64,000 nucleotides of DNA, taken from contig CALWQP010000010.1 in the NCBI GenBank assembly GCA_944383695.1, positions 1-64,000 of the forward strand, read 5' to 3'. This DNA is from an uncultured Mediterraneibacter sp. Its GTDB lineage: Bacteria > Bacillota > Clostridia > Lachnospirales > Lachnospiraceae. Position 1 is the first letter of the stretch; every line of letters begins with the position of its first letter. Shown here one piece after another: positions 23,193 to 27,537 of the stretch. The position numbers were made by a program, and so were the translations under genes. The notes under the pieces are model-generated. The model ran no database searches. It was not told the origin of the DNA and saw only the letters and a program-made list of their open reading frames with translations.

Positions 23193-24083
23193 ATGAAGAA
23201 GTTATTAGCAGCAGCTTTAAGTGCGGTTCTCGCTGTGGGCCTGCTCGCAGGATGTGGAAGCAAGGGCAGCGGTGATGGTAGCGGTGATGGCGCCAGTGAT
23301 GCGGGAAGCAGCGCGAAGACAGCGCAGGTGATCGATGTTGACTTGACGGATGAGGAATATGCGTTTGGCGTTGACAAGACTCAGCCGGAACTTCTGGAGC
23401 AGGTAAATGCATTCATCAGCAAGATAAAAGAAGACGGTACTCTGGATGAGATTTTTGACAAATATTTTGGTGATGGAGAGCCGACGGCAGTTAAGTCTGC
23501 TGCGCTTGACGAGTCAAAGGACCAGCTTGTGGTTGCCACAAATGCGGCGTTCGAACCATTCGAGTATATGCAGGGCGACTCCTATGTAGGGATTGACATG
23601 GAGATCGCGTCTCTTCTTGCAGAGGAACTGGGAAAAGAGCTTGTGATCCAGAACATGGACTTTGACGCGGTGTGCCTTTCTGTAGGACAGCAGAAATGTG
23701 ACATTGCTATGGCAGGCCTTACTGTCAGCGAGGAAAGAAAAGAGTATGTGACATTCTCAGACACATATTATCAGGCTTCTCAGCGCCTGATCGTTCCGAG
23801 CGGTGATACGGTATTCGCGGATATGACAGATGCGGAGGAGATCGCGGCAGCTTTGGCTGAGCTGGACTCTTCTGTTAAGATTGGCGTACAGCAGGGAACA
23901 ACAGGCAACAGCTATGTAGAGGGAAGCGAAGATCTTGGATTCCCGGGACTTGAGGCGACATGCCAGACATATAAGAGCGGTTCTCTTGCAGTGCAGGATA
24001 TGCTCAACGGAAATATTGACTATGTGATCATTGATGCGGCGCCCGCGGCAGCGATCACAGAAGCGATCAACGCGATGCAGTAA
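23193..24083 (+). CDS. Amino-acid ABC transporter substrate-binding lipoprotein, permuted
   Basis: Extracytoplasmic binding protein (SBP_bac_3 type) for a polar amino acid. The 296-residue precursor has a lipoprotein signal with lipobox LLAGC (Cys21) and a Gly/Ser linker. The order of the fold is unusual: residues about 45-97 (IDVDLTDEEYAFGVDKTQ ... DGTLDEIFDKYFG) are what normally ends such proteins, while the normal start (DQLVVATNAAFEPFEYMQG) appears at about 107, and the chain ends at VIIDAAPAAAITEAINAMQ, where a normal protein would continue into that C-terminal part. It is probably a natural circular permutation. The permease gene follows after 130 nt. Confidence 0.9.
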   Translation: MKKLLAAALSAVLAVGLLAGCGSKGSGDGSGDGASDAGSSAKTAQVIDVDLTDEEYAFGVDKTQPELLEQVNAFISKIKEDGTLDEIFDKYFGDGEPTAVKSAALDESKDQLVVATNAAFEPFEYMQGDSYVGIDMEIASLLAEELGKELVIQNMDFDAVCLSVGQQKCDIAMAGLTVSEERKEYVTFSDTYYQASQRLIVPSGDTVFADMTDAEEIAAALAELDSSVKIGVQQGTTGNSYVEGSEDLGFPGLEATCQTYKSGSLAVQDMLNGNIDYVIIDAAPAAAITEAINAMQ

Positions 24084-24213: not shown

Positions 24214-24924
24214 ATGGGTAATTTTAGTCAGAAGGTAGATAAGTTTATAGAGATATTCGTAGAGCAGAACGGATACGTCAGAGTTGTGGAAGGCCTGCAG
24301 AATACACTCCTCATTGCAGTGTGCGGTCTTATCATTGGTATCCTGATCGGTACGGTCATCGCGACAGTGCGTGTACTTCCGAAGTACAAGCTGCTCCCAA
24401 GAGTACTGAACGGCGTCTGCAGTTTCTATGTGGCGCTGTTCCGCGGAACGCCTATGGTGGTCCAGCTCCTTGTATTTTACTATGTGCTCCTGCCCATCAT
24501 CGGATGGAATATAAGCGGAGTCCAAGTGTCCATGCTGGTGTTCGGCTTGAACAGCGGCGCGTATATATCGGAAATCATGAGGAGCGGTATCCAGTCCGTG
24601 GATCCGGGACAGATGGAAGCAGGGCGCGCGGTGGGCCTGAGCTTTGGCGCGAGCATGACAAAAATCGTGATTCCGCAGGCAGTGAAGAATATCCTTCCTA
24701 CACTGGGCAATGAGTTTATTTCCCTGATCAAAGAGACGTCAGTCGTGAGTTTCGTGGGCGCGGCGGATTTGTATGTGGCATTTAACTATATCGGAACAAA
24801 TAACTATGAGTTCATGGTTCCGTACCTGGTGATGGCACTGATCTATATCGCTATCGTGCTTGTGATCACACTGCTTATCAAAATACTGGAAAGGAGCCTG
24901 AAGAAGAGTGATAGACGTAATTAA
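24214..24924 (+). CDS. Amino-acid ABC transporter permease
   Basis: HisM/GlnP-type inner-membrane subunit, 236 aa with about five hydrophobic segments and the EAA loop [45 protein letters not shown]. The spacing after the binding protein (130 nt) includes CCTTCT-TTTG-AGAAGG at 24191-24206, a hairpin that covers the ribosome site and may lower permease synthesis relative to the binding protein. The gene overlaps the ATPase by 17 nt. Confidence 0.95.
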
Positions 24925-25732
24925 TCTTAGGAAAAGTTTTGGTGATCTTGAGATATTAAAAGGCATTAACATCACCATCAATAAGGGCGACATCGTCGCA
25001 GTGCTCGGACCGTCCGGCTCCGGAAAGAGTACCTTCCTCCGCTGTCTGAACTGTATGGAAGACCCCACCTCGGGAAGCATTATATTCAAGGGAGTGGATA
25101 TCGCGGACATGAAGGTGGATATCAATATCCACCGCCGTCATATGGGAATGGTATTCCAGCATTTTAACCTGTTTAACAATAAGACAGTGCTTCAAAACGT
25201 TATGATGGCGCCGGCGTATTTAAGATGCCAGGACCTGAAGAAGGCAAAGCGAAAAAACCGGATGATCCGTTTTAAGAACACGTTCCGGAGCAATAAGGAA
25301 GAACTGATTCCGATCACAACTACAAAAGAGCAGATCAGAAGCGAGGCAAAACAGCAGGCTCTGGATCTGCTGGCAAGGATTGGACTGGATGATAAGGCGG
25401 ACGTCTATCCCTCCACCCTGTCCGGCGGGCAGAAGCAGAGAGTGGCGATCATCCGCTCTCTGGCAATGAACCCGGATGTCATTCTCTTTGACGAGCCGAC
25501 TTCAGCATTGGACCCGGAAATGGTAGGAGAGGTCCTTGACCTGATGAAGAAGCTGGCAAAAGAGGGAATGACCATGGTCGTGGTAACGCATGAGATGGGC
25601 TTCGCCCGGGAGGTGGCCTCCAGAGTCATCTTCATGGATGACGGACAGATTCGGGAGGAAGCGCCTCCGCAAGAATTTTTCGGAAACCCGAAGGACGAGA
25701 GGCTGAAAGAATTCCTCTCAAAAATCCTGTAA
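24908..25732 (+). CDS. Amino-acid ABC transporter ATP-binding protein
   Basis: GlnQ/HisP-type ATPase, 274 aa. Walker [11 protein letters not shown]-loop [10 protein letters not shown], signature LSGGQKQR and Walker [13 protein letters not shown] are all intact, with the switch His in [11 protein letters not shown] basic insertion of about 30 residues ([23 protein letters not shown] region, about 115-145) between the Q-loop and the signature is longer than in the standard 240-aa family. It starts with GTG inside the permease gene, so it is coupled. With the two preceding genes it forms a complete importer. Confidence 0.95.
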
Positions 25733-25755
25733 ACCAGTACAAGGCAGAGTTGACA

Positions 25756-27537
25756 ATGAAATATGAAAGAATCAGCAGGGCGCTCTTTTTGGAGCGCCCG
25801 AACCGTTTTATCGCGTATGCGGAATTAGATGGAAAAAAAGAGACAATACATGTGAAAAATACCGGGCGGTGCGCGGAGCTGCTGCGTCCCGGCGCGGTGA
25901 TCTATGTCCAGGAGAGCGACAATCCGGCAAGGAAGACGAAGTGGGATCTGATCGCTGTGGAGAAGGACACAGGCAAGGGAAAGCGCCTGATCAATATGGA
26001 TTCGCAGATTCCGAACCGGGTTGTTCAGGAGTGGATCGAACAGGGAAATCTGTTTTCTGATGTGACCCGGATAGGGCCGGAGACAACGTTCGGGAATTCC
26101 CGGTTCGATTTGTATGTCGAGGCGGGAGACAGAAAGATTTTCATCGAGGTCAAAGGCGTTACCCTGGAAGGGAACGGAGTGTGCCGTTTCCCGGATGCGC
26201 CCAGCGACCGGGCGGTGAAACATCTGGAGGAGCTGGTCCGAGCGAAAAAGGAAGGGTACGAGGCTTATGTGTTCTTTGTGATCCAGATGAAGGGCGTCTC
26301 CTATTTTACCCCAAACACAGATACCCATCCTGCTTTTGCAGAAGCATTGAGGCGGGCAAAATCAGCCGGGGTTGAAATCCTTGCGTATGACTGTGATGTG
26401 GCGGCGGACAGCATACGGATCGGGAATCCGGTGGACGTGGTGTTGCACAGCCCGCGGATGAAGGAAGCAGTGGAGCCCCTGGTGGAATGGTTCCGGGCAA
26501 ATCAGAGAGATCTGCCGTGGCGAAGGAGGATGGACGCCTACCGGGTGTGGATTTCGGAAATCATGCTCCAGCAGACCCGGGTGGAGGCAGTGAAGCCCTA
26601 TTATGAACGCTTTTTAAAGGAACTGCCGGACGTAAAGGCGCTGGCAGAAGTGCCGGAGGACCGTCTGCTGAAGCTGTGGGAAGGACTGGGGTATTATAAC
26701 CGTGCCCGAAACTTGAAAGAAGCGGCGTGCCAGATCATGGAAGAATACGGTGGGAAATTTCCGGACACATATGAGGAAATCCTGTCTCTGAAAGGAATTG
26801 GGAGCTACACAGCCGGAGCGGTGAGTTCTTTTGTGTACGGCATCCGCAAACCCGCTGTGGACGGAAATGTGCTGCGGGTGGTGTCAAGGATCACAGCGGA
26901 CAGCGATGATATCGCGAGGCCGGGGACAAAGTCAAAAGTGGAGAACATGGTAGAAGAAGTGATTCCGGCCGGATCGGCAGGGGACTTCAACCAGAGCCTG
27001 ATCGAGCTTGGAGCGATCGTATGCGTTCCGAACGGAGAGCCAAAGTGCGGTGAATGTCCTGTCAGCCACCTCTGCCTTGCCCATGAGCAGGGGAGAGAGA
27101 CAGAGTTCCCTGTGAAGAAAAAAGCAAAGAGCAGGCGGATAGAAAAACGCACAATACTGGTATTCCGGGATAATGAGAAGACTGCAGTGCGGAAGAGGCC
27201 TGACACCGGGCTGCTGGCTGGAATGTATGAATTTCCCGGCATGGAAGGACACCTGAAACAGGAAGAAGTCATTGAGCAGGCGAAGGCGCTGGGACTGATG
27301 CCTGTGCGTGTGAAGCGCCTGGGAAGCGCGAAGCATATTTTCAGCCATGTGGAATGGCATATGATCGGTTATGAGATAATCGTGGACGAACTGGAACGGA
27401 ATCTGAAGGAGAACAGCGCGTTTGTCGGAGAGAGCGAGCAGGGAAATATCCTGTTTGCGGGTTTGAGAGAACTAAGAGAAAAATATCCCATGCCATCTGC
27501 CTTTGAGGCGTATATGCCGGAGGGCAGGGGGTTATAG
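25756..27537 (+). CDS. SfsA-MutY fusion: SfsA nuclease and adenine DNA glycosylase
   Basis: A 593-residue fusion. Residues about 1-230 are SfsA: LFLERPNRFIAYAELDG, HVKNTGRCAELLRPG, the nuclease-like FGNSRFDLYVEAG ... FIEVKGVTLEGNG. Residues about 238-593 are MutY: PLVEWFRANQRDLPWRRRMDAYRVWISEIMLQQTRVEAV with the catalytic Glu, the helix-hairpin-helix LKGIGSYTAGAVSSF and Asp in VDGNVLRV, four Fe-S cysteines C-x6-C-x2-C-x5-C (CVPNGEPKCGECPVSHLC), and a Nudix-like C-terminal domain for 8-oxoG recognition. MutY removes A opposite 8-oxoG. It lies about 23 nt after the ABC ATPase and could be co-transcribed. The ATG at 25756 is preferred over a TTG at 25750. Confidence 0.93.
   Translation: MKYERISRALFLERPNRFIAYAELDGKKETIHVKNTGRCAELLRPGAVIYVQESDNPARKTKWDLIAVEKDTGKGKRLINMDSQIPNRVVQEWIEQGNLFSDVTRIGPETTFGNSRFDLYVEAGDRKIFIEVKGVTLEGNGVCRFPDAPSDRAVKHLEELVRAKKEGYEAYVFFVIQMKGVSYFTPNTDTHPAFAEALRRAKSAGVEILAYDCDVAADSIRIGNPVDVVLHSPRMKEAVEPLVEWFRANQRDLPWRRRMDAYRVWISEIMLQQTRVEAVKPYYERFLKELPDVKALAEVPEDRLLKLWEGLGYYNRARNLKEAACQIMEEYGGKFPDTYEEILSLKGIGSYTAGAVSSFVYGIRKPAVDGNVLRVVSRITADSDDIARPGTKSKVENMVEEVIPAGSAGDFNQSLIELGAIVCVPNGEPKCGECPVSHLCLAHEQGRETEFPVKKKAKSRRIEKRTILVFRDNEKTAVRKRPDTGLLAGMYEFPGMEGHLKQEEVIEQAKALGLMPVRVKRLGSAKHIFSHVEWHMIGYEIIVDELERNLKENSAFVGESEQGNILFAGLRELREKYPMPSAFEAYMPEGRGL

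Follow-up and report, generated by a model that had tools for sequence, protein, structure and literature searches.

A 64,000-nucleotide stretch of contig CALWQP010000010.1 from an uncultured Mediterraneibacter sp. (hereafter the window) carries, at positions 23193-24083 (+), an open reading frame (ORF) with an ATG start that encodes a 296-aa protein containing one SBP_bac_3 domain. This gut-bacterial protein is best explained, with a probability that we put at about 0.93, as a naturally circularly permuted, lipid-anchored substrate-binding protein (SBP) of a polar-amino-acid ATP-binding cassette (ABC) importer. For its description we divided the domain into part N (lobe 1 through to the first strand of lobe 2), part L (the remaining lobe 2) and part T (the last lobe-2 strand, the second hinge strand and the C-terminal helices of lobe 1). 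Canonical proteins have the order N-L-T. The window protein has the order T-N-L, hereafter named type A, and a third order, L-T-N, is named type B.

A complete SBP_bac_3 domain in swapped order

The window protein matched the PF00497 (SBP_bac_3) profile with an E-value of 9.8e-34 and 116.4 bits, against a cut-off of 26.4, which places it in the family. To avoid circularity, a second profile of 218 positions was built from 33 canonical relatives alone. With this hidden Markov model, profile positions 168-218 aligned to residues 42-92 (independent E-value 1e-15) and positions 2-168 to residues 109-293 (independent E-value 4e-56). The two pieces are complementary and make up the whole domain once, with no loss and no duplication, but 168-218 precedes 2-168, which is not the N-L-T order expected of SBP_bac_3. 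A canonical-only model of the tail scored 63.7 bits on the real N-terminal segment, and 11.6 bits on the best of 5000 shuffles. A phmmer search against PDB sequences (overall E-value 5.6e-29) aligned residues 111-288 to residues 11-174 of AncQR, and residues 46-94 to residues 185-233, which form the C-terminus of the AncQR chain. No second tail or lobe was found in any frame around the gene. Judged from these matches, the protein is a member of SBP_bac_3 by homology and content, with its parts in a permuted order.

A sequence-only reading of this DNA had proposed that the segment usually terminating SBP_bac_3 proteins (TDEEYAFGV) lies at the N-terminus, right after the lipoprotein linker, that the chain ends where this segment should follow, and that the arrangement is a natural circular permutation. 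The profile matches bear out both placements, the chain stopping 3 residues past profile position 168, and the permutation is further supported by 117 co-linear relatives and a confident AlphaFold2 model (see below). Alternatively, the N-terminal segment could be an extra, non-equivalent element, such as the remnant of an upstream domain, on an otherwise complete binding protein. It does follow a flexible tether, and lipoproteins often have tethers of low complexity. However, the domain is not complete without it: the remaining chain covers only positions 2-168 of 218, and 169-218 are missing. The segment itself has the significant match to 168-218, evolves under purifying selection and is modelled with an AlphaFold2 confidence mostly of 91-99. 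At the sequence level this alternative appears already refuted, and we give it hardly any probability.

An assembly error or a broken gene was ruled out by the purifying selection and by the presence of the same order in isolates and long scaffolds, namely those of [Ruminococcus] torques ATCC 27756, Mediterraneibacter massiliensis, Faecalicatena contorta and Coprococcus catus. A tandem-domain artefact was ruled out as well, the window protein having a single domain; a true tandem protein, L149, was kept separate. The gene and its two partner genes comprise the following features:

23193..23255 (+), lipoprotein signal peptide with lipobox LLAG|C, Cys21 being the mature N-terminus (from the sequence)
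23256..23315 (+), tether rich in Gly, Ser and Asp, residues 22-41 (low conservation across 82 orthologues)
23316..23474 (+), segment T, the moved C-terminal segment, residues 42-94, with the last lobe-2 strand, the second hinge strand (TDEEYAF) and the two C-terminal helices of lobe 1 (canonical profile 168-218; PDB AncQR 185-233; AlphaFold2 helices; dN/dS far below 1)
23475..23516 (+), junction linker between the old C-terminus and the old N-terminus (DGEPTAVKSAALDE...) (length in type A proteins; comparison with the tandem domains of L149)
23517..23810 (+), N part of lobe 1, first hinge strand and first lobe-2 strand, residues 109-206 (canonical profile from position 2; PF00497)
23811..24071 (+), remainder of lobe 2, residues 207-293 (canonical profile to position 168)
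24072..24083 (+), new C-terminus, AMQ and stop, immediately behind the last helix of lobe 2 (end position conserved among orthologues)
24214..24924 (+), partner permease, BPD_transp_1, of the HisM/GlnP/cystine-permease type (family profile matches; downstream of nearly every type A gene)
24908..25732 (+), partner ABC ATPase of the GlnQ/TcyN type (family profile matches; conserved gene neighbourhood)

Predicted fold and position of the break

The AlphaFold2 model, based on an alignment of 106 T-N-L proteins, had a predicted local distance difference test (pLDDT) score of 94.9 and a predicted template modelling (pTM) score of 0.87, and both T helices were well predicted. A model made from the single sequence (pLDDT 37) was set aside. 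Foldseek superposed the N-L part on glutamine- and arginine-binding protein structures with a probability of 1.00, over 177-185 columns at 1.8-3.4 Å (closed forms) and with a target-normalised TM-score (TMt) of about 0.67. Coverage of the N-L part alone is expected when a sequential aligner meets a permuted domain, and the place of T is not shown thereby. Model and matches together point to the two-lobe fold of the family.

The break maps to about residues 168-172 of E. coli GlnH, behind the final helix of lobe 2 and ahead of its final strand. The GlnH sequence behind this mapping agrees with the 1ggg chain where the phmmer alignment prints 1ggg. Since the hinge strands of GlnH, which we take to lie near 85-89 and 181-185, are both retained within the chain, the new ends stand beside the hinge. 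The sequence-only reading had described the permutation as joining the former ends and reopening the hinge lobe. The joining holds, but the break is not in the hinge: the new ends are in lobe 2, about 10 residues before the second hinge strand, and this strand (EEYAF) lies inside the moved segment.

Some points temper this reading. The three-dimensional equivalence of the moved segment is suggested by sequence and model confidence. The type A branch is long (1.21 changes per column), and no intermediate was found on the direct type A lineage. Finally, the moved segment could complete lobe 1 of a neighbouring molecule, which would give a domain-swapped oligomer. The 17-residue junction is, however, as long as the linkers between tandem domains, and the monomer is itself predicted at the pTM of 0.87. 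We regard such a swap as very unlikely.

Conservation, distribution and operon of type A proteins

A scan of species genomes detected 80 relatives, all of T-N-L order and 63-95% identical to the window protein. With the family search included, the T-N-L loci numbered 118, counting that of the window. The T-N junction has 17-19 residues in all 118 type A proteins (17 in the window protein), and in all but one the chain ends 5-9 residues past the L match. Comparison of segment T between the window gene and five orthologues gave nonsynonymous divergence (dN) values of 0.008-0.089 and synonymous divergence (dS) values from 0.4 to saturation, with dN/dS of about 0.02-0.05 wherever it could be computed. 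The moved segment is thus under purifying selection. Type A proteins were present in 40 of 397 genomes in an even sample of the same family, and in 2 of 399 genomes in an even sample of the phylum, both belonging to the family of the window.

The exact gene string SBP-permease-ATPase was found in 111 type A loci; a few others have it with additional genes alongside. At the window locus the SBP gene is followed by the expected HisM-type permease and GlnQ-type ATPase genes. This ATPase carries about 35 inserted residues (around positions 103-138), which split its matches to GlnQ-type profiles. Further along the window, at 25750-27537 (+), a single 595-aa ORF combines SfsA N- and C-terminal domains with HhH-GPD and NUDIX_4 domains, forming an SfsA-MutY fusion.

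Predicted ligand binding and proposed function

GlnH binds the alpha-carboxylate and the alpha-amino group of its ligand with Thr70, Arg75 and Asp157. These have their equivalents in Thr177, Arg182 and Asp281 of the window protein, which are invariant in 106 sequences; the residues with which SBP_bac_3 proteins bind the alpha group of an amino acid are therefore present. Where GlnH has the side-chain contacts Asp10, Lys115 and His156, the window protein has Asn, Gln and Ile. With the triad kept and these contacts replaced, an L-amino acid ligand would be expected, recognised in a manner unlike that of GlnH. The score against the NCBIfam GlnH equivalog model (112 bits, cut-off 303) also leaves the protein outside the glutamine-specific GlnH group. 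The ligand is probably a polar L-amino acid. No riboswitch or T-box that might hint at the ligand was found close to the window gene, and among nine type A loci the only such element was a cobalamin riboswitch, located elsewhere in L148.

Most likely the protein serves as a normal subunit of an amino-acid importer, with its lipid anchor shifted to lobe 2. The chain would fold into the usual two-lobe Venus flytrap, the 17-residue linker joining the old ends of lobe 1, so that lobe 1 would be continuous. With the new ends placed in lobe 2 next to the hinge, the lipid anchor would pull on the last lobe-2 strand and not on lobe 1. This change of tether, from the first lobe-1 strand to lobe 2 near the hinge, would be the main physical difference. 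An L-amino acid would be bound through the Thr/Arg/Asp triad, the flytrap would close normally, and the protein would dock on the neighbouring permease and hand the ligand to the permease and ATPase encoded alongside.

Two further break points in relatives

Two additional break points, again with complementary pieces each time, were found in distant relatives belonging mostly to Lachnospiraceae. In type B proteins, profile positions 97-218 precede 2-95 (L087, L101), and the break follows the first lobe-2 strand. In type C, positions 129-218 precede 4-128 (L096), with a break in mid-lobe 2. The loci are:

L087, L093, L101 and L150-L168, type B (L-T-N), for example L087:1189-1998
L096:1474-2295 (-) and L102:585-1547 (+), type C, from another Bacillota family

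Genes of both types also precede permease and ATPase genes. Type B proteins were present in 81 of the 397 family genomes, and in 24 of these 81 the best match was a direct fusion with the permease, the chain running on into it from the end of the first lobe-2 strand. No genome among the 397 carried both type A (40 genomes) and type B (81 genomes), these being raw counts uncorrected for kinship. In another collection, L075 carries a type A protein together with a separate type B protein, of the subfamily of L002, their operons lying in tandem.

In a tree of 88 rows, computed with sequences restored to canonical order, the permuted proteins fell at several places. A single origin of all L-T-N proteins was rejected by the approximately unbiased (AU) test (p = 6e-8), while that of the main type B set was not (p = 0.125). 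The type B protein L075:6515-7354 grouped with L002, a canonical paralogue from the window's own genome (60.5% identity, 100/100 support), showing that one subfamily exists in both orders. The T-N-L proteins L145 and L146 share about 65% identity with canonical proteins, among which the tree placed them. Since the AU test did not reject one common origin for all T-N-L proteins (p = 0.061), we do not claim these two as an independent event. The existence of three break points and of at least two independent L-T-N events is secure, whereas the exact number of events is not.

Probable route of origin

The most likely origin is permutation through duplication, in which a head-to-tail pair of domains would lose the front of the first copy and the back of the second. 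The position of the trimming would decide whether type A, B or C results. A possible model of the duplication intermediate is L149 (G592), where a 973-aa protein (L149:1068-3986, -) contains three near-identical canonical domains in tandem and a permease. Its tandem junctions have 15-16 aa, compared with 16-24 residues in most permuted proteins. The tandem chain 6h30 (GlnP) was also matched by the window protein across its T1-N2 junction in the phmmer search.

Instead of a tandem duplication inside one gene, the rotated order could stem from the fusion of two partial genes or from recombination between adjacent SBP genes. SBP genes can indeed cluster, as in L075 with its tandem operons of types A and B. 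Nevertheless, the pieces are exactly complementary, and tandem fused domains with similar junctions exist. This route seems to us somewhat unlikely.

Comparison with known systems

The window protein shares all strands and helices, the binding triad, operon partners and lipoprotein or secreted form with cluster F (PF00497) proteins such as GlnH, HisJ, ArgT, ArtJ, AncQR (PDB 4zv1) and the T. maritima ArgBP. It is about 26-31% identical to the best solved structures of this cluster over the N-L part. It differs from them in its T-N-L order, with ends in lobe 2 and a continuous lobe 1, and in a longer helix region before KIGVQQG in lobe 2.

A close parallel is TpMglB-2 (Tp0684) of Treponema pallidum, a natural permutation of a sugar-binding cluster B protein (Type Ic/cluster Bc) (PMC4990184). 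It is likewise a naturally circularly permuted binding lipoprotein of an ABC importer, tethered at a shifted N-terminus, but its fold is of the sugar-binding Type I (cluster B) kind, which differs in topology; its N-terminal lobe-1 part has moved to the C-terminus, with a fourth cross-over, and a single break point was reported (PMC4990184). The best family and PDB matches of the window protein are cluster F amino-acid-binding proteins and not the Type I fold. For TpMglB-2, Brautigam and colleagues suggested that anchoring might explain the permutation (PMC4990184), an idea that the permease fusions of type B may fit. In GlnP SBD1-SBD2 (6h30), the T part of the first domain runs into the N part of the second, so that the T-N order of the permuted proteins recurs locally, but the chain has two complete canonical domains where the permuted proteins have one. 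Clifton and colleagues reportedly engineered circular permutants of ancestral arginine-binding proteins in 2017 as Förster resonance energy transfer (FRET) sensors that kept their use in binding. Those permutants were laboratory-made, whereas the SBP_bac_3 permutations described here are natural, old and repeated. No report of natural permutation in SBP_bac_3 was found in the literature searched, which did not cover subscription papers. Natural permutation of a binding protein has a precedent in another fold class; for SBP_bac_3, and with several break points, none was found in that literature.

Meaning for the family

A very common, well-studied family has been permuted at three points, with more than one origin, while the operon, the triad and a near-complete sequence were kept. 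As a result of the permuted order, automatic annotation sees two partial domains in type A, B and C proteins. We tentatively suggest, at somewhat less than even odds, that amino-acid-binding proteins of Lachnospiraceae may have been permuted repeatedly at three lobe-2 breaks because tandem duplication eases permutation and because shifting the anchor or the permease attachment from lobe 1 to lobe 2 would alter how the flytrap is presented to the transporter, types A and B being alternative solutions to the same task. The permuted proteins could provide ready-made scaffolds for biosensors. They also form a natural data set on where a two-lobe protein can open and on how it hinges, is anchored and evolves, and can be used to ask if transport depends on where the anchor or the fused permease is attached and if nature permutes proteins by way of duplication.
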